From an uncultured Candidatus Actinomarina sp. (GTDB lineage: Bacteria; Actinomycetota; Acidimicrobiia; Actinomarinales; Actinomarinaceae), in the NCBI GenBank assembly GCA_902595195.1, contig CACJPC010000002.1:106270-167443 (forward strand): a DNA stretch of 61,174 nt. Direction: 5' to 3'. A program made the translations under genes and the position numbers. Positions 21,281-33,185 of this stretch are shown one piece after another. How positions within the stretch are numbered: position 1 is the stretch's first letter; the number at the start of each line of letters is the position of its first letter. The notes below the pieces were generated by a model. The model had not been told where the DNA came from and made no database searches. It saw only the letters and a program-made list of their open reading frames with translations.

Positions 21281-22288
21281 ATGCGAAGAAGTTGGGCGGT
21301 AGGCCTACTTATTATCAGTATTCTTGCTATGGCCTGCGGGGGAGCCGCAGACGTAGATGATTACAAAGCTGCATTTGTGTATGTGGGTCCAGCAGACGAT
21401 GGTGGCTGGTCACAAGCACATGATGTAGGTAGACAATATCTTGTAGATCAAACTGGAATCGAAACAGCTTATACAGAGCTTGTTCCAGAAGACGCTACAG
21501 AATTCAGAACAGTTGCTGAAGCTTATATTGAACAAGGTTACAATATAATTTTTGGAACAACTTTCGGTTATTTAGATGCAATGGCTGAAATGGCAGAGGA
21601 ATATCCTGATGTCATTTTCTTACATTGCTCCGGTTATCTTAAAAATGATACAAACTTTGGAAATTATTTTGGAAAAATGTATCAACCAAGATATCTTTCT
21701 GGCTTAGCGGCAGGTGCAATGACAGAATCAAACAAAATAGGTTATGTCGCAGCATTCCCTATACCTGAAGTTATCAGAGGCATTAATGCTTTTGCTACAG
21801 GTGTTAAAGAAGTAAATCCAGATGCAACTGTTGAAGTTGTTTGGACATTTACTTGGTTTGGCCCTGAAGCTGAAACACAAGCTGCAAATGCTTTGCTTGA
21901 AACTGGAGTTGATGTACTTGCACAACACCAAGATTCACCATCAACAGGCATCGCGGCAGAAGCTGCTGGTGCTAAATGGATTTCTTACAATACTGCATAT
22001 GGACAAGATGCTGCTCCTGGAGCCTTCGTAACAGCGCCTGTCTGGGACTGGGGTCCGTACTACGTTGAAGTAGTTGAGTCTATTGTAAATGATGAGTTTG
22101 TTGCAGAAGCATACTGGGGTGGTATGGATACAGGATTAGTCTCTTTATATGAGCTTTCTTCTGATGTCCCATCTGATACTGCTGATTTAATCTCCCAAAG
22201 AACTGATGAGATAATTAGTGGTTCATTTGATCCTCCAATTGTGGAAGATGAATTTATCGATAATGTTATTGGTACCGTAAATCCATAA
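21281..22288 (+). CDS. BMP-family lipoprotein, ABC transporter substrate-binding (nucleoside-type)
   Basis: Lipobox LAMACGG, AFVYVGPADDGGWSQAHDVGR; preceded by AAAGGAGGT ribosome-binding site. Confidence 0.92.
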   Translation: MRRSWAVGLLIISILAMACGGAADVDDYKAAFVYVGPADDGGWSQAHDVGRQYLVDQTGIETAYTELVPEDATEFRTVAEAYIEQGYNIIFGTTFGYLDAMAEMAEEYPDVIFLHCSGYLKNDTNFGNYFGKMYQPRYLSGLAAGAMTESNKIGYVAAFPIPEVIRGINAFATGVKEVNPDATVEVVWTFTWFGPEAETQAANALLETGVDVLAQHQDSPSTGIAAEAAGAKWISYNTAYGQDAAPGAFVTAPVWDWGPYYVEVVESIVNDEFVAEAYWGGMDTGLVSLYELSSDVPSDTADLISQRTDEIISGSFDPPIVEDEFIDNVIGTVNP

Positions 22289-22299
22289 CATGTTTTTTA

Positions 22300-22330
22300 T
22301 TAAGCACTCCGGCAAAGCTGGAGTGCTTAA
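22300..22330 (+). terminator. Intergenic 11-bp hairpin after the substrate-binding gene (terminator or attenuator)
   Basis: TTAAGCACTCC-ggcaaagct-GGAGTGCTTAA, perfect stem, followed by ttatttt. Confidence 0.75.
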
Positions 22331-22342
22331 TTATTTTCAAAT

Positions 22343-23836
22343 ATGAGTTCCCCAATCCTAGAAGTTAAAAGTGTTTCTAAATCTTTTGGAAACATAAAAG
22401 CACTTGATAATGTAGATTTCTATTTGCAAAAAGGAGTTGTGCACGGGCTCCTGGGTGAAAATGGTGCGGGAAAATCTTCGTTAATGAATGTTTTATCTGG
22501 GATCTATTTACCAGAAAGTGGAACTATTAAAATTAAAAACCAAAATATTCACAAAATGAACCCCGATATTGCATCTTCTTTTGGAGTTGGAATGGTACAT
22601 CAAGAATTTAGACTTATAGAAAGTTTCACAATAAAAGATAATCTTACTCTTTCTAAAGCAAATATATTTACTGATAATTTTGAAGAAGCATACGAAAAAT
22701 ATTCAGAAATATTTACTTTAAATTCGAGTTATTTAACTCCTATTAATGAACTTTCTGTAGGTGAAAAACAAAAAGTAGAGATAATGAAATTAATTTTTAA
22801 AAATAGTGAAATTATGCTTCTTGATGAACCTACTGCAGTTCTGACTCCTCAGGAAACATTACAGCTTAAAGAATCTTTGGATCAACTTTCTCAGGAAGAT
22901 GATAAAACCATTGTTTTAATTACTCATAAATTAAAAGAGATAAAAGATTTTACTGAAAGAATATTTGTAATGAAAAACGGAAAAATGGTTGCAAAAAATT
23001 TAGAAACTGAAAAAGTAACTGATCAGGAACTTATTGAATTGATGATGGGTGAAGTTAAAACTTCTAATTTCAAAAAAGATAACAAAAAGGGTGACGTCAA
23101 ATTAGAAGTAAAAGACATATCACTTACAAACAGTGAACAATTTAAATCACTTGACGATATTTCTTTTACAATTCAATCAGGAGAGATTCTGGGTGTTGCT
23201 GGTGTATCTGGTAACGGCCAGGTAGAGCTAGCAAATGTTATTTGTGGAATTGAAAAAGAATTTCAAGGAAGAGTTTTAATTAATTCTCAAGATGTTTCAA
23301 AAAAAGGTGTTAAATCTAGAAAAAAGCTAAGCCTTTCTTATATTCCTGAAAATAGACTTGGTGTGGGTTTAGCTCCGGGTGTGTCAGTTTTGGATAATTC
23401 CGCTATAAAAGAATATTTTAAGGCAAGCTATGGTCCTCATTTATCAAAAGGAAAAATGCTAGGTTATCTAAATGATCTAATCAAGCAGTTTGCGATTAAG
23501 GCACCTGATGTAAAAGCAGAAATATCTACTCTTTCAGGTGGAAATATGCAAAAACTTTTAATGGGTCGAGAATTAATTTCAAATCCTGAAGTAATTGTTG
23601 CTGCCCAGCCAACAAGAGGATTGGATGTTAGTGCAGTTGAAGCAATTCATAAATTGATAATTAATCAAAGAGACAAAGGTTCAGCTGTTCTGTTGATTTC
23701 AGAGGATCTTGATGAGCTTTTTAAACTTAGTGACAGGATTATTGTTCTTTACGAAGGTAGAGTAGTAAAAGAAGTTGGAATCGATTCAGCAACAATTGAG
23801 ACAATTGGCTATGCAATGGCTGGTATAGATGAATAA
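22343..23836 (+). CDS. Nucleoside-type ABC transporter ATP-binding protein (two NBDs)
   Basis: LLGENGAGKSSLMNVLSG and second domain GVSGNGQVELANVICG; LSGGNMQKLLMGREL. Confidence 0.93.
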   Translation: MSSPILEVKSVSKSFGNIKALDNVDFYLQKGVVHGLLGENGAGKSSLMNVLSGIYLPESGTIKIKNQNIHKMNPDIASSFGVGMVHQEFRLIESFTIKDNLTLSKANIFTDNFEEAYEKYSEIFTLNSSYLTPINELSVGEKQKVEIMKLIFKNSEIMLLDEPTAVLTPQETLQLKESLDQLSQEDDKTIVLITHKLKEIKDFTERIFVMKNGKMVAKNLETEKVTDQELIELMMGEVKTSNFKKDNKKGDVKLEVKDISLTNSEQFKSLDDISFTIQSGEILGVAGVSGNGQVELANVICGIEKEFQGRVLINSQDVSKKGVKSRKKLSLSYIPENRLGVGLAPGVSVLDNSAIKEYFKASYGPHLSKGKMLGYLNDLIKQFAIKAPDVKAEISTLSGGNMQKLLMGRELISNPEVIVAAQPTRGLDVSAVEAIHKLIINQRDKGSAVLLISEDLDELFKLSDRIIVLYEGRVVKEVGIDSATIETIGYAMAGIDE

Positions 23837-24890
23837 ATACATTCTTTCTAAAAAACTTTACAGAAATGAACTAGCAACTTTTTATTCTTTTTTAATAGGT
23901 TTTTTGATTGCTCTTGCTGTGGGATCTTTAATATTATTTATTCAGGAAAAAAATCCCTTCGATGTTTTCTCCTTAATGCTTAAATTATCTATTGGCAGTG
24001 TAAATAGTCTCAGCAACTCACTGAATAAGGCGATACCTCTTATATTGGCTGGGCTAGGTATCTCAATAATTAACTCTGTAAAGCTCTGGAACATTGGAGC
24101 TGAAGGCCAAATTTTCATGGGAGCTATTGCTCTAAATTTTGTTTACATAAATACTTCAATAAATAATTCACAAATATATATTTTGCTACTGTTAGTTTCT
24201 GGATTTTTAGGAGGTGCTTTTTGTATTCTCTTCCCAGCAATTACAAAAGTTTTATTTGGAGTGAATGAAATTATTACAACTCTTCTTACGAATTATATTG
24301 TCTTTGGGCTAACTATTTATTTAATAAATGGTGCTTGGAAAGATCCTGCTTCTTTAAATTTTCCTGCAGCAGCCTATGTAAATGAGTCAGTTTATTTACC
24401 AACTGTTTTAGGAAAATTAAGCTCTGGATTTTTAATTTGTATACTTTTCACTCTCATAGCTTATTACATTAAAGACAAATCAGTATTTGGATATGAAATG
24501 AGAATAGCTGGTGGATCAGAATTGACTGCCATATATGCTGGAATTAGTGCAAAGCAAAAAGCCTTTTTTGCAATGTTAATTGGTGGTGGTTTTGCCGGGC
24601 TAGCTGGAGCAATCGAATTATTAAGCCAGACTCACAGAGTATCAACTGGAATTTCTCAGGGATTTGGTTATACAGCTATTATTGTTGCAGCAATCACGGG
24701 AATGAGACCTATTGGTATATTCTTAGTAGGTTGTTTGTTTGGAGCTTTAACTATAGGTGGTTCCGTGATACAAACTATCGGTGTAAGTTCTTATATAGCT
24801 GAAATAATTCAGGCAACTACTCTTTTTGGAGCTTTAATAGCTCAATTCTTTTTTTCATATGAAATTTTAAAAAAGGATGAAAATGATTGA
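23829..24890 (+). CDS. ABC transporter permease (BMP/nucleoside type)
   Basis: LWNIGAEGQIFMGAIALNF motif, polytopic, operon context. Confidence 0.92.
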   Translation: MNKYILSKKLYRNELATFYSFLIGFLIALAVGSLILFIQEKNPFDVFSLMLKLSIGSVNSLSNSLNKAIPLILAGLGISIINSVKLWNIGAEGQIFMGAIALNFVYINTSINNSQIYILLLLVSGFLGGAFCILFPAITKVLFGVNEIITTLLTNYIVFGLTIYLINGAWKDPASLNFPAAAYVNESVYLPTVLGKLSSGFLICILFTLIAYYIKDKSVFGYEMRIAGGSELTAIYAGISAKQKAFFAMLIGGGFAGLAGAIELLSQTHRVSTGISQGFGYTAIIVAAITGMRPIGIFLVGCLFGALTIGGSVIQTIGVSSYIAEIIQATTLFGALIAQFFFSYEILKKDEND

Positions 24891-25806
24891 TGTACAGTTA
24901 ATGGGTTTACTAAATGCTACATTGCAAGCTGCAACATTGTTGTTTATTGCTGCTTTAGGAGAACTTATTACTGAAAAATCCGGAATTTTAAACCTAGGGG
25001 TAGAGGGAATGATTTCAGTTGGAGCTGTTTCAGGTTTCATTACAGCAATTAATACGGAAAGTTTGTTTCTAGCAGTAATTGTTGGTGTTCTAAGTGCATC
25101 AGCATTTTCATCAATTCATGCTTTTGTAACTGTTGTGTTAAAACAAGACCAAACGGTGTCTGGGTTAATTTTAACTATCCTTGGACTATCACTTTCTTCT
25201 CTAATTGGAAAGCCATATGTTGGAAAAAAATTAGAAGTCAAACTTACAAGCCTTATTGATATTGCTGAACCATCAAATATTTTTCAAGTACTGCTTAATC
25301 AAAATTTAATCTTTTACATAGCTATTTTGCTTATGATTTTCACTGCTTATATTTTAAAGAAAACAATGTTCGGTAGAAGAATAGAAGCAATAGGAGAGGA
25401 TTTGAAATCTGCAGATTCTATGGGGCTAAAAATTGCAAAAACACAGTTTATAGCTACTTGTGTAGGTGGAGCTTTTGCTGGTCTTTCTGGTGTCTATCTT
25501 ACACTAAGCTATGTTCCATATTGGACCGATGGAATGACCTCTGGTCGTGGGTGGATTGCATTGGCTTTAGTAATTTTTGGAGGATGGAAGCCATATAGAA
25601 CAGCTTTTGGAGCTTTACTATTTGGTTTTCTTGAAGCACTAGGTCCACGTTTACAAACATATGGATTTGAAATGAGTCCTTACATTGTAAAAATTACACC
25701 CTACATTATTACTATTCTTGTATTAGTTTTCTTAACAATTATAAAAAATGGAAATACTGGTGCTCCTAAAAATATCGGTATTCCATTCTTTAGAGAAAAT
25801 AGGTAA
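24877..25806 (+). CDS. ABC transporter permease (BMP/nucleoside type)
   Basis: GILNLGVEGMISVGAVSGF motif, polytopic, operon context. Confidence 0.92.
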   Translation: MKMIDVQLMGLLNATLQAATLLFIAALGELITEKSGILNLGVEGMISVGAVSGFITAINTESLFLAVIVGVLSASAFSSIHAFVTVVLKQDQTVSGLILTILGLSLSSLIGKPYVGKKLEVKLTSLIDIAEPSNIFQVLLNQNLIFYIAILLMIFTAYILKKTMFGRRIEAIGEDLKSADSMGLKIAKTQFIATCVGGAFAGLSGVYLTLSYVPYWTDGMTSGRGWIALALVIFGGWKPYRTAFGALLFGFLEALGPRLQTYGFEMSPYIVKITPYIITILVLVFLTIIKNGNTGAPKNIGIPFFRENR

Positions 25807-25843
25807 ATCAAATTATTTAAATCAATTTTTTGGTAGTATTAAT

Positions 25844-25887
25844 AAGACTTTAATTGACACCTGTGAGTGTCGAAAGGAAATGTCTTG
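25844..25887 (+). promoter_or_regulatory. Candidate PyrR-binding loop overlapping pyrR SD and start codon
   Basis: Lower stem AAGAC-TTT / AAA-(T)-GTCTT, internal loop AATT/GAAAGG, upper stem GACAC/GTGTC, hexaloop CTGTGA (fits CNGNGA). Confidence 0.75.
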
Positions 25888-26361
25888 GAAATAGATAAAA
25901 TAATTTATCGTCTTAGTAAAGAAATCACTGAATCTGAATTTACTAATCCTCTTTTACTTGGTATCCCAAGAAGAGGCGATTTAATTGCAAAAAGAATTTC
26001 AAAAAACCTTGATGAACTAAATTACGCGCATGATATTGATACTGTTGATTATTTACCATTTAGAGATGATTTAGAAGAAGAAATTGAGAAAACAAAATTA
26101 AAAATAAATCCGCAAGAAAGAGATGTCATTTTGATTGATGATGTCATTTATACAGGAAGAACTTTAAGAGCTTCAATAGAGGCCGTAGTTCATACAGGTA
26201 GGCCAAGATTAATTTCCCTTCTTTGCCTGATTGACAGAGGCCATAGAGAACTTCCCATTAGTCCAAAATTCATTGGAAAAAATATACCTACTAATGAAGA
26301 GGAATATGTTTCAGTATTTCTCAAAGAATTAGATGACGTTGATAAGGTTGAGGTCAAATAG
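25885..26361 (+). CDS. pyrR: Bifunctional pyr regulator / uracil phosphoribosyltransferase PyrR
   Basis: VILIDDVIYTGRTLRASIEAVVHTGRPR, LIDRGHRELPISPKFIGKNIPT. TTG 25885 sits 7 nt downstream of AAAGG. Confidence 0.93.
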   Translation: MEIDKIIYRLSKEITESEFTNPLLLGIPRRGDLIAKRISKNLDELNYAHDIDTVDYLPFRDDLEEEIEKTKLKINPQERDVILIDDVIYTGRTLRASIEAVVHTGRPRLISLLCLIDRGHRELPISPKFIGKNIPTNEEEYVSVFLKELDDVDKVEVK

Positions 26362-26364
26362 CAT

Positions 26365-27243
26365 ATGAAGCATCTTCTAGATTTTCAAAATATAGAAAAA
26401 GAAAATTTAGAAAAGATTATTAATTCAATTTTGAAACTCAATATACAAAAATTAAAAAAAATTGATTCTTTTACCCTTTTGCAATTTAATGAAAGCTCAA
26501 CAAGAACTAGACTTTCATTTTCAATTGCTGCTCAGAAATTGGGGATCAATGTAGTAGAGTCGCAAGACTCAATTTCAGCTAAAGAAAAAGGTGAAAGCTT
26601 AATTCACGAATTGGAAACTTTTAAATCTATGGGAATAGAAGCATTAGTAATAAGAACAAAAGAAAATAATTTAGAGGAATATAAAAATTTCAATGAAATT
26701 TCAGTTATTAGTGGAGGATTTGGTAATACTTCTCACCCAACACAAGCATTAGTTGATGTTGCGACTCTAACAAAACTAAATAAATTTTCCTATGAAGTGC
26801 CAGTAACTTATGTTGGTGACCTCAAGCATTCTAGAGTATTTTCCTCTGGTAGAGAGCTGTTAACCAAATTAGGATTTAAGGTTGGTGTTTTCTCTAATGA
26901 AGAACTTCTTCCTGGTAATTTAGATAATTTATGTGTTTTTAATTCTTGGGAAGAAGTAGTTGAAAATTCAGGATCTGTTGAATTATTAAGAGTTCAAAAA
27001 GAACGCATTGAAAATATTGAAGGTTTTGATTTTAATAATTACAAAAAAAACTTTCAATTAACCAATGAAATACTTGAAAACACTTCTGATGACTTTGTTG
27101 TCTTGCACCCAATGCCGATAAATATTGGAATAGAAATAGACGATAATGCAGCAAATAACAAAAAATTTATTTACCAAGAACAACTAAAAATGGCAATTCC
27201 TTCAAGGGTTGGAAGCTATCAATATGTATTTGGAGTTATATGA
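26365..27243 (+). CDS. pyrB: Aspartate carbamoyltransferase
   Basis: NESSTRTRLSFSIAAQKLG, SHPTQALVDVATL, operon position. Confidence 0.94.
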   Translation: MKHLLDFQNIEKENLEKIINSILKLNIQKLKKIDSFTLLQFNESSTRTRLSFSIAAQKLGINVVESQDSISAKEKGESLIHELETFKSMGIEALVIRTKENNLEEYKNFNEISVISGGFGNTSHPTQALVDVATLTKLNKFSYEVPVTYVGDLKHSRVFSSGRELLTKLGFKVGVFSNEELLPGNLDNLCVFNSWEEVVENSGSVELLRVQKERIENIEGFDFNNYKKNFQLTNEILENTSDDFVVLHPMPINIGIEIDDNAANNKKFIYQEQLKMAIPSRVGSYQYVFGVI

Positions 27244-28298
27244 TTGAAATACCATCATTTATTGATCTTCATACTCATACACGTTATCCAGATAAAAATA
27301 ATTTCCCTATTTTCGAAATTGAAAAAGCAGCACTGAACGGTGGATATTCAGAAGTTTTAGCAATGGCAAATTCTGAAATAACAATTGATTCAATAGAAAA
27401 TCTTAAACTAGCAAGGTCCTTTGATAAAAAGTTAAACATACTAGTTCATCGAGTTGGAGCATTGTCAAAAAACCTTGATGGAAAAGAACTTGTAAATTTT
27501 AATGAATTTGTTGATGAAGGAGTAACAATTTTTTCAGATGATGGAAAAACACTTATTGATGATGATCTTTCGGAAATTGCTTTTAAAGAAATTGCTAAGT
27601 TAAATGGTGCAATTTTTCAACATTGTGAAAAAAACTGCCACACAAATCCCGGTGATATAGCACCTCCTTACAACGCTTCAGAACTAATTACTATTCATGA
27701 AAATGAAGAGTTTGAAATTATAAAAAGAGATTTAGATTTAGTAGACAAATATAAAACTAGATATCATGTACAACACGTTTCTTCTAAAAAGAGTGTCGAA
27801 CTAATAAAAGATGCAAAAGAAAATGGCCTTCCAGTAACTGCTGAAGTAACCCCTCATCACTTATTAAAAAATAACTTAGATATAAATATGAATAATGGAA
27901 GCCTAAAAATGTATCCCCCATTAAGATCAGAAGAAGATAGACAAGCATTAATTACTGGTCTAAAAAATGGAATTATCGATGTAATTGCTACTGATCACGC
28001 GCCACATCCAAAAGAAACTAAAGAAATAAGTTTCAAGAAATCTGCAAGAGGCGTGGTTGGATTAGAGTCAGCATTTGTTGTCTTATTTTCTTCAAATCTA
28101 TTTAGTTTGGAAGAATTAATAAGATTTATGTCGATAAATCCAATGAATATTCTGGTTAGTCTTGGATATGCTAGCTCAAACACCAAAATAAATAATTGGA
28201 CTAAAAGTAACAGCACTTTTATTACAAAATCATTTTACAAAAATTCAGCCTTTGAAAACTTCCAAGTAAGCATTCAGAAAGAAATAAATCATGTATAA
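27240..28298 (+). CDS. pyrC: Dihydroorotase
   Basis: DLHTHTRYPDK, VTAEVTPHHLL, ATDHAPHPKETK. Confidence 0.92.
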   Translation: MIEIPSFIDLHTHTRYPDKNNFPIFEIEKAALNGGYSEVLAMANSEITIDSIENLKLARSFDKKLNILVHRVGALSKNLDGKELVNFNEFVDEGVTIFSDDGKTLIDDDLSEIAFKEIAKLNGAIFQHCEKNCHTNPGDIAPPYNASELITIHENEEFEIIKRDLDLVDKYKTRYHVQHVSSKKSVELIKDAKENGLPVTAEVTPHHLLKNNLDINMNNGSLKMYPPLRSEEDRQALITGLKNGIIDVIATDHAPHPKETKEISFKKSARGVVGLESAFVVLFSSNLFSLEELIRFMSINPMNILVSLGYASSNTKINNWTKSNSTFITKSFYKNSAFENFQVSIQKEINHV

Positions 28299-29388
28299 AA
28301 AAACTTTGCTTGTTAATCAAAATGGAGATGAGTTTATAGGATGGTCAGATAACGAATTTAATCCTACAACTGGTGAACTAATATTTAACACAGCAATGAC
28401 AGGTTTTGTTGAGATACTAAGTGACCCCTCCTATATAAATCAAATAATTACGTTTACTTCTTCTCATGTTGGAAATTATGGAATGTCACAAGATGATTAT
28501 GAGTCTAATGAACCAAAAATTGAGGCTGCTATAGGTAACTCATTTACATATAATCCATCATCTTGGAGATCAGAAAAATCTGTAACTTCCTGGTTAAAAG
28601 AATATGAAATACCCTTTAGTGGCGGTTTTGATGTCAGGTCAATAACAAAACATCTTAGAGACCGTGGGTCCAGTATGTTTGCAATAGGGCAAGAGATTGA
28701 TAAAGACTCACTTATTAATTTAGTTAAAGATGCTAAGGACATAATTGGTGATAATTCAGCACTAACGGCTGGTAGTTTGAATTTGGGTAATGATACTGTT
28801 GGTAAAGTTGGGATTTTAGATCTTGGAGCTAAACAAAGCATTGTAAATGTATTGAAAAAGTTAAATTTTCAAGCTGTTGCAATTTCTCCAAATGAATCAG
28901 CAGAAAATATACTTTCAATGAATCTAAAAGGTATTTTAATATCTAATGGCCCTGGAGATCCAAGATCTCTCAAAGGTGTAATTGATACTGTTCAAAAACT
29001 GATTGGTAACATTCCTATATTTGGAATCTGTTTAGGTCATCAAATTTTAAGCCTTGCATGTGGTCTGACTGTTAGAAAATTAGAATTTGGACATCATGGC
29101 TCAAATCACCCAGTAGAAATAAAAGGGATTAAGAAAGCATTGATTACTGCTCAGAATCATGGATTTGCAGTAGATGATTTTGAATCTGATCTTGTGCATG
29201 AAAAATTTGGAAAAATTGAATGTTATGCAAGTAATTTAAATGATGGAAGTAATGAAGGTATAAGTATTTGGGAGTCAATGGCTTATTCAGTACAATTTCA
29301 TCCAGAATCTGGTCCAGGCACATCTGATGGACTACAAATTTTTGATCCATTTATGAAACTTATGGAAAGTAACTATGCCAAAAAATAA
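28291..29388 (+). CDS. carA: Carbamoyl phosphate synthase small subunit
   Basis: [14 protein letters not shown] glutaminase nucleophile, [15 protein letters not shown]. Confidence 0.96.
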
Positions 29389-32300
29389 AGATATAAATAG
29401 CATTTTAATAATTGGATCAGGACCAATTGTAATTGGGCAAGCATGTGAGTTTGATTATTCAGGATCACAGGCTGCAAAAGCTCTTAAACAAGAAGGTTAT
29501 AGAGTTATTCTTGTTAACTCAAACCCAGCAACTATTATGACTGATCCAGAAATGGCAGACGCTACATATATTGAACCACTAACTGTAAATTATTTGAAAA
29601 AGATAATTGAGATTGAAAAACCTGATGCTGTCCTACCTACATTAGGTGGGCAAACAGCATTAAATTTATCAATGGAATTAGAAAATGACAATGTATTTGA
29701 TAAAAATGATATTTTACTTTTGGGTGCATCTGCAAAATCTATAGAGATTGCAGAAAATAGGTGGCTTTTTAAAAGTGCTATGGAAAGTGCAGGAATCAAA
29801 ACATTACAAGCTCTATATGTTAAGTCCGTCCAAGAGGGTGTAGCTGCAAGTGAAGATATAGGATTTCCATTAATGCTTAGGCCTTCATTTATTTTAGGTG
29901 GAGGTGGTACAAGTCTTGTTGAAAGCAAAGAAGACTTAGAGAAAAAATTAAAAGATGCATTTAAAGCATCCCCAACACAAGAAGTTCTAATAGAAGAATC
30001 TGTTTATGGATGGAAAGAGTATGAACTTGAGGTAATGAGAGACAGTGATGGAAACGGTGTTATTGTCTGTGGAATTGAAAATTTTGATCCAATGGGCGTT
30101 CATACTGGAGATTCCATTACAGTTGCTCCAATTCAAACTTTGTCTGACAAAGAATATCAAATTATGAGAGACGAAGCTCTACTTTGCTTAGACACAATTG
30201 GGATTGCAACTGGTGGTAGTAACGTTCAATTTGCAGTTAATCCAGAAAATGGTGATAGAAGAATTATAGAAATGAATCCTCGAGTGTCGAGATCTTCAGC
30301 ATTAGCATCTAAAGCAACTGGATTTCCTATTGCAAAATTTGCAGCGTTATTAGCTGTTGGTTACAACCTCACAGAATTAAAAAATGATATTACTGGTTCA
30401 ACACCAGCAAGTTTTGAACCAGTTCAGGACTATGTTGTAGTTAAGATTCCAAGATTTGATTTTCCAAAATTTCCCTCAACAGATGACGTTTTAGGAACAT
30501 CTATGCAAAGTGTAGGTGAGGTTATGTCAATAGCTTCAACTTTCACAGAAAGCTTAACTAAAGCAATTAGATCACTTGAAATAGGTAAAACAGGAATAAG
30601 GAATATTGATAACCGATTTATAAACCTACCAAAAAACCAACTTCAAGAAGAAATTAAAATACCAAGACCGAGAAGAATTTTTGCGATTTTAGAAGCTATT
30701 AGAAGAAACTGGCCAATCGAAGATATAGCTTTATTGTCAAAAGTAGATTTGTGGTTCTTGAGAGAGATTGAAAAAAGTTTTAATGTAAACCCAGAGTCAA
30801 CTCCTGTATCAATTTTAAAAATGCTTGGTTGGACTGATGAAGATCTAGATTCTAAAGAAATAAAGGATGAACTTGAAAATAAGAGAGCTTATAAACTTGT
30901 AGACACTTGTTCAGCAGAATTTTTATCAAAAACTCCATATTTGTACTCCACTTTTGGGACGTCAGACGATGACAGTGCATCAAAGAATAAAAAAGTCGTA
31001 GTCATAGGTTCTGGGCCGAACAGAATTGGACAGGGAATAGAGTTTGATTATTGCTGTGTTCATGGTGTTGAGTCGTTAAAAGAAAATAATTATGAAGCTA
31101 TCATGATTAACTCAAATCCAGAAACTGTTTCTACAGATTATGACACTGCTGACAAATTATATTTTGAACCACTTTCTTGGGATGAAGTTAAAGCAGTATT
31201 AGCAAGAGAAAAACCAGATTCAGTAATTATTCAACTTGGAGGACAAACTCCCCTAAAGCTTGCTAATAAAATCTCTTCAGCAGGTTATAAAATTGCTGGA
31301 TCGTCTCTAGATGTTATAGATGCAACTGAGGATAGAGATTTATTTCAAAAACTTTGCCTATCTTTAAATATTGATCAACCAAAATCAAAAATTTCATTTA
31401 ATGAGGATGAGTTAATCAGTGCAGTGAAAGAAATTACTTATCCTGTGCTGTTAAGACCGAGCTATGTTTTGGGAGGTAGAGCTATGCGTGTTGTTAAAAA
31501 TGATACTGAGTTAAAAAACTATCTATCAATATTGGCAACTGCAGATGATGATGGGAATCCTTTTAGTTCTGGTCCACTGCTTGTTGATCAGTTTCTAACC
31601 GAAACTATTGAAATAGATGTTGATTTAATATCAGATGGAAAAGATGTCTTTATTGCAGGAATTTTAGAGCATTTAGAACCTGCAGGAGTTCATAGTGGAG
31701 ACTCTACTGCTGTTCTTCCACCTTTTAGTATTGCGGATAGCATGATAAAGGAAATTGAAGACAAGAGTACTACACTTGCAAAAGCCCTTGGTGTAAAAGG
31801 GTTATTAAATATTCAATTTGCTATCAAAGATGATACATTATTTATTCTTGAGGCAAATCCAAGAGCTTCTAGAACTATGCCTTTTGTGTCAAAAGTGACA
31901 GGAAACCAAATAATTAAAGCTGGAACCCTTTTGATGCTTGGACATAGTTTGGATTCAATCAAAAAAACTACCAATTATTTGAATAGTTCAACAAATAAAG
32001 TAGCTATTAAAAAAGCTATTTTTCCTTGGTCAAGATTTCCAGCTGAAGATACAATGCTTGGCCCTGAAATGAAAGCAACAGGAGAAGTATTGGGAATTGG
32101 AAAAAGTTTTGGAGTTGCTTTAAATAAAGCTTATGCAGCTGCAGGAGTTGAAATAAATGAAAATGAAAAAGGTATTTTTGTGTCTCTTAGCGATCAAGAA
32201 AAACCTAATTTTATAAAAATTGTAAAAACTTATTCCGACTTAGGATTCAAAATTTATTCAACATACGGGACAGGAGAATACTTAAAAAATAACGATATTC

Positions 32301-32557
32301 ACTCAACTATTGTTGGAAGGGCTGATGAAACCTTTCCAACTTCTTTGACTATTCTTCAAGATAAACTAATTTCACTTGTTATCAATACGCCTACATTTGC
32401 AAACGAATATACAGATGGATGGAAAATTAGGCGACTCTCACATGAAACTGGTGTAGCAGTAGTTTCATCTGTCAGAGAAGCTGAGGCTTTTTTAAAGGCA
32501 TTTTTAGAAACTACAAAGTCTTTTGAGGATATGGAGGCAATACAAAATGTCAGTTAA
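29375..32557 (+). CDS. carB: Carbamoyl phosphate synthase large subunit
   Basis: 1060 aa; [17 protein letters not shown] and [19 protein letters not shown] duplicated ATP-grasp halves. Confidence 0.97.
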
Positions 32558-33185
32558 ACCAATATTCTTTGCACTAGATGGAAAATCATTATCTGAATTT
32601 GAATTTGAACTAAAGATATTAAAAGATCATATATACGGAGTAAAAGTAGGCCTTGAACTCTTTGTTTCTGAAGGGCCATCTGTTGTAGAAAAGTTAAAAA
32701 AACAAGGGTGGCAAGTTTTTTTAGACCTAAAACTTCATGATATACCAAATACTGTTAAGGAAGCTACAAGAAGTGCAGCGAACCTTGGAGCAGATTTTTT
32801 AACAATTCATATTTCTTCTACTAGCGATGCCTTGATTGAAGCATCAAGTACTAAAGGTAACACTCTCCAAATTCTTGGTGTTAGTAGTGCATTAACTAGT
32901 AGGGCTATGAGTAACTCAGTAAGTGAAGAGGTAAACAAAGAGTTTAAAGAAGCAAAGGAATGTGGTGTTGACGGAGTAATTTGTCCAGCTTCAGAAATAT
33001 CTAAAACAAAAGAGATATTTGATTTAATTGTAACTCCTGGAATACGTCTTAAAAATGATGACAAAAATGACCAAAAAAATTTTGCAACACCTAATTTTGC
33101 AATTAATGAAGGTGCAAAATATATAGTTATGGGAAGATCTATAAGAAATAATCTCGACTACATTATCAATGATTTAGAGTTATGA
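32547..33185 (+). CDS. pyrF: Orotidine 5'-phosphate decarboxylase
   Basis: [34 protein letters not shown]. Start ATG 32547 overlaps carB end. Confidence 0.92.

Follow-up and report, generated by a model that had tools for sequence, protein, structure and literature searches.

A predicted PyrR-binding RNA loop at the Shine-Dalgarno sequence of pyrR in Candidatus Actinomarina, with a probable role in translational repression

The pyr operon of an uncultured Candidatus Actinomarina sp. raises the question of what an RNA hairpin lying immediately before its first gene, pyrR, is for, and whether it acts on transcription or on translation. We analysed a stretch of 61,174 nt of this genome (hereafter the window), in which a first-pass annotation had pointed to positions 25844-25887 as a PyrR-binding loop; the sequence and coordinates of this 44-mer were as given there. 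A Bmp-type nucleoside ABC transporter operon (window 21281-25806) lies directly upstream of pyrR, and the permease gene upstream of pyrR takes the same place in the genus loci that were read. The features of the locus are collected in Table 1.

Table 1. Positions in the window of the pyrR leader elements and of the pyr genes, with the basis of each assignment.
Feature	Coordinates	Strand	Basis
Promoter-like extended -10 element TTTGGTAGTAT	25829..25839	+	Conserved motif; promoter role and start site inferred
Conserved lower stem, 5' strand (CUUU)	25848..25851	+	Invariant in 17 genus leaders; consensus fold
5' bulge AAU	25852..25854	+	AA invariant; consensus fold
Upper stem, 5' strand UGACAC	25855..25860	+	3 of 6 pairs altered on both sides, pairing kept
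Hexaloop CUGUGA (CNGNGA consensus)	25861..25866	+	C, G and GA invariant in 17 genus and 12 aligned class leaders
Upper stem, 3' strand GUGUCG	25867..25872	+	Genus covariation counts
Lower stem, 3' strand AAAG, part of Shine-Dalgarno	25873..25876	+	Pair counts and RNAalifold
Shine-Dalgarno AAAGGA	25873..25878	+	AAGGA invariant in 17 leaders
pyrR, TTG start, 158 aa	25885..26361	+	NCBIfam PyrR models E 1e-47; PDB PyrR chains E 3e-31; starts align in relatives
pyrB, aspartate carbamoyltransferase	26365..27243	+	Family match; 3 nt after pyrR
pyrC, dihydroorotase	27240..28298	+	Family match; overlaps pyrB by 4 nt
carA	28291..29388	+	Family match; overlaps pyrC
carB	29375..32557	+	Named from 1060-aa translation; overlaps carA
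pyrF	32547..33185	+	Family match; overlaps carB
pyrD-like, short, 225 aa	33182..33859	+	Family match
pyrE-like short phosphoribosyltransferase, 129 aa	33823..34212	+	Weak matches only

The hairpin was compared with those of its relatives by searching 39 related genomes, which yielded 17 pyrR loci at genus level, counting that of the window. CUUUAA, a hexaloop fitting CNGNGA and AAGGA directly 5' of the start codon are present in 17/17 of these leaders, so the hexaloop first noted in the window is kept in all of them. The upper stem has six pairs, one more than the GACAC/GUGUC originally described, and it occurs in the genus as UGACAC/GUGUCG, UGAUAC/GUAUCG, CAAUGU/GCAUUG, CAAUGC/GUAUUG and UGAUGU/GCAUCA. 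Three of its pairs are changed on both sides with the pairing kept, in 17 such cells compared to 5.2 in shuffles, and 99% of its cells are paired; the closing pair is C-G (or U-G) in 16 leaders, the exception (L011) having an A.G mismatch. RNAalifold, run on the 17 leaders with no structure supplied, returned this upper stem together with a lower stem CUUU/AAAG, paired in 100% of cells, and the 5' bulge AAU. Compensatory changes, which had been looked for in both stems, are thus found within the genus in the upper one. In Actinomarina no leader has the two strands of the lower stem changed together, because this stem is also the Shine-Dalgarno, and at this level what argues for it in the alignment is its invariance only; its covariation appears across the class. 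The genus leaders therefore have a covarying upper stem whose length is within the 5-7 pairs of such loops, a lower stem set off by a purine-rich bulge on the 5' side and a pyrR/pyr neighbourhood, as is characteristic of PyrR loops. Moreover, the window 44-mer is more stable than its shuffled versions (z -2.49; 5 of 200 shuffles), and the genome of the window, which is 79% complete, has one strong loop site. On the sequence comparison, the hairpin can be assigned to the PyrR binding loops with near certainty.

Upstream of the loop we found a second conserved element, TTTGSTANNAT, which is exact in 16/17 genus leaders (one base is changed in L015) and ends at a fixed distance of 8 nt before CUUU between poorly conserved flanks; it is not common before the other genes of the window. 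Its form and position suggest that it may be an extended -10 element, which would place the start of transcription at about 25846, at the edge of the loop. When the leaders were folded from this predicted start, the upper stem was firm in most of them, the lower stem was weak and the Shine-Dalgarno was partly free; in the window RNA other pairings were favoured and the Shine-Dalgarno bases were 43-84% unpaired. The free RNA would therefore be a poor lock alone, and PyrR would be needed to close the lower stem.

The TTG codon at 25885, already proposed as the pyrR start, aligns with the GTG or ATG starts of relatives and stands 6 nt behind the Shine-Dalgarno (spacer AAUGUC; 4-6 nt in relatives). 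The PyrR proteins of Actinomarina keep the TGRT phosphate loop, R19, H140, R141 and K152 (B. subtilis numbering) and differ at H22 (K), R27 (S or T), T41 (R or K) and R146 (S or T), several of which presumably belong to the RNA-contacting face in Bacillus PyrR. At the other end of the operon, the family profiles are far longer than either of the last two proteins: the PyrD-like one matches DHO_dh in two separate stretches, and the match of the PyrE-like one is weak.

Translational repression of pyrR by PyrR is the best explanation of this arrangement and is strongly supported by the comparison of leaders. It is drawn from the observed structure of the loop, its conservation and covariation, its position, in which it contains or adjoins the Shine-Dalgarno of pyrR, the absence of a terminator between loop and gene, and the association with pyrR at the loci examined. 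Against it weigh the pairings favoured by the folded window RNA, the differences at several probable RNA-facing residues of PyrR and the closing mismatch of L011. Very probably the loop acts in cis on the translation of pyrR as a clamp over the Shine-Dalgarno, with the operon plausibly coupled to it. Transcription would probably begin at the loop's edge and leave a leader that is little more than the loop itself. When UMP or UTP is sufficient, PyrR would bind the hexaloop and the upper stem and clamp the short lower stem, whose 3' strand is the Shine-Dalgarno, and ribosomes would be shut out of pyrR; through the overlapping reading frames, less of pyrBC-carAB-pyrFDE would be made. When the ligand is absent, the lower stem would open and translation would proceed. 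The ligand dependence in this scheme is that generally known for PyrR. Control of the whole operon by translational coupling, as proposed in the first-pass annotation, is plausible from the overlap of the genes, and the PyrR loop controlling translation is the strongly supported part of that proposal; the masking of the start codon, which it also included, is not conserved.

It could also be that pyrR regulates only itself, the downstream genes being largely independently translated and the pathway little affected. We consider this unlikely, since pyrB and the genes behind it follow one another with overlaps or almost no gap, favouring coupling, and the operon is kept behind the loop in most genomes, but it finds support in two genomes (G009 and G020) in which pyrR stands alone. 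Here a single contig (L247, L248) carries the gene for the nucleoside permease, then the loop with pyrR, and rpiB-fumC, and the pyr operon is absent; pyrB, pyrC, pyrF and carA were not found elsewhere in either genome (both ~90% complete). The loop is intact in both (53.8 bits). Both also have a full-length Upp, so that uracil salvage alone does not explain why pyrR was retained. It is possible, if on the doubtful side, that in Actinomarina the loop, as the entire leader, and pyrR make up a self-contained autoregulatory unit that is kept after loss of the de novo pathway despite the separate Upp, with a role of PyrR beyond the pyr genes.

The reverse loss was also observed. In G003 rpiB follows directly after the permease gene and pyrR is gone. 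Three further genomes (G002, G011 and G093) have, between permease and rpiB, a gene for a protein of some 286-307 aa in place of pyrR and the operon. In G011 this ~290-aa gene (L273:207-1067) matches Pfam HMUDK_hel, the helical domain of 5-hmdU DNA kinase (E 4e-18); its counterparts occupy the corresponding positions of L274 and L275, where pyrR and the pyr operon are likewise missing. Searches did not find pyrR in G002, G003 or G011, the one exception being a faint 23% match at another place in G011, and reading of the G093 locus (this genome was outside the genome search) revealed none. Model R2 found no loop at these four loci, and direct reading of those of G003, G011 and G093 showed neither the hexaloop nor TTTGSTANNAT. 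As the loop is kept with pyrR when the operon is missing, and none is found where pyrR was lost, the loop goes with pyrR and not with the pathway genes, in loci that come from draft genomes where misassembly is not fully excludable. These natural deletions separate the control of pyrR from the control of the pathway.

Translational repression by PyrR had initially been linked to a different fold, in which an extended 8-bp lower stem, AAGACUUU/AAAuGUCUU, masks both the Shine-Dalgarno and the start codon. This stem is indeed the minimum-energy fold of the window 44-mer alone, and its outer pairs are possible in L001 and partly in L002. It is not conserved, however: in the 17 leaders just 75% of countable cells are paired; for several pairs the majority of rows show a gap or no pairing, and length differences make pair 7-45 uncountable in most rows. 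Furthermore, if transcription starts at about 25846, the outer pairs would be partly missing. The pair counts thus rule it out as the conserved form, and we regard masking by the extended stem as very improbable. Since CUUU/AAAG is the conserved lower stem, the Shine-Dalgarno AAAGGA is in part its 3' strand, rather than lying in an internal loop AAUU/GAAAGG as formerly drawn, and the start codon is left uncovered, outside the conserved structure.

Attenuation of transcription of the Bacillus type, with a terminator and an antiterminator, has hardly any probability here. The Rfam family RF00515 (PyrR), which is built on attenuators, does align at the loop, but only with a lax threshold: its first hairpin falls exactly on it with 28.8 bits (gathering score 54), and at the gathering level the Rfam search gave no hit at this site. 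The later RF00515 hairpins, which form the attenuator part, align to coding sequence only and with mismatches. No terminator was found in 25700-26100, which led us to reject this reading and is in keeping with the earlier statement that no terminator/antiterminator pair fits. In every genus member the loop ends ~8 nt before the start codon, and the start at about 25846, if correct, makes the leader the loop alone (~40 nt), with no space for an attenuator. A hairpin independent of PyrR, whether a DNA operator or a leader that responds to temperature or stabilises the mRNA, is just as improbable, because the C, G and GA of the hexaloop are invariant though unpaired and no loop was seen at the four loci without pyrR, even if the weak lower stem could open with temperature.

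The comparison was carried to the rest of the class with leaders taken upstream of PyrR, as model R2, fitted to the AT-rich genus, was too narrow to pick up other members of the class. An equivalent loop was present in 67/67 pyrR leaders examined from other genera of the class, and 1.3% of shuffled leaders reached a comparable loop score. Of the 64 leaders classified, 22 have the lower stem CCUUU/AAAGG and 41 one of the CCGU/ACGG type (three were missed by the hexaloop-only detector and one of the 64 was untypable), and the strands match in all 63 typed, with none discordant; the loop finder seeks a lower stem, so these counts lean towards one, the guards being the shuffled control and the stem-type table. 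Two of the 41 were reassigned by eye because AAAGG follows ACGG. In the CCGU/ACGG form the stem comes before the Shine-Dalgarno and does not include it. In these leaders the lower stem covaries across the class, changing as a unit. Joint MAFFT alignments of genus and class (A2 and A3) put the lower stem in the wrong place, and a model derived from A2, R1, covered only the upper stem and was not used.

Outside the class, a pattern scan of named genomes detected the CCUUU/AAAGG form in Mycobacterium, Nocardia, Gordonia, Streptomyces, Amycolatopsis, Cellulomonas and others, and also in Firmicutes. The start codon is close behind the loop in the actinobacteria (median 17 nt), and none of 38 has a terminator in between. 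Firmicutes loops stand farther off (median 121 nt), and 21 of 34 are followed by a terminator-like hairpin before the gene is reached. By this distance the two known ways in which PyrR works can be told apart, and the window belongs with the translational one.

According to PMC7771536, Actinomarina-type genomes have a median gene spacing of 2-3 bp and belong to cells among the smallest free-living ones; this genome paper on the order makes no mention of PyrR. One of the smallest free-living cells would thus keep a dedicated RNA regulator for pyrimidine synthesis. As for its annotation, the Firmicutes controls L088 and L111 pass the RF00515 cut-off, while RF00515 was not detected in three actinobacterial controls (L092, L163 and L139), the mycobacterial loci not reaching E 0.05. 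The family therefore misses the actinobacterial form in these controls, and annotation may overlook such loops. With RF00515, the Bacillus attenuator, the Actinomarina loop shares the design of the first hairpin (lower stem CCUU/AAGG, 5' bulge UAA, upper stem and hexaloop CNGNGA), and it differs in having neither antiterminator nor terminator and in its score of about half the cut-off.

The closest known system is that of Mycobacterium smegmatis, for which PyrR-dependent translational repression of the pyr operon is described (Fields and Switzer 2007, J Bacteriol 189:6236, as cited in PMC13328217 and PMC6455119). Both have a PyrR loop over the first ribosome-binding site and no terminator, and in the mycobacterial loci L092 and L163 we read CCUUUAA...CNGNGA...AAGGAGG directly before the start codon. 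The mechanism is therefore already known in actinobacteria, and what is added here is an Actinomarina member with a revised structure. Compared to M. smegmatis, this member is AT-rich, with the lower stem cut to CUUU/AAAG by loss of the outer C-G pair, weaker start codons (TTG, GTG, ATG), a predicted leader of only some 40 nt and a PyrR carrying lineage-specific changes on its probable RNA face.
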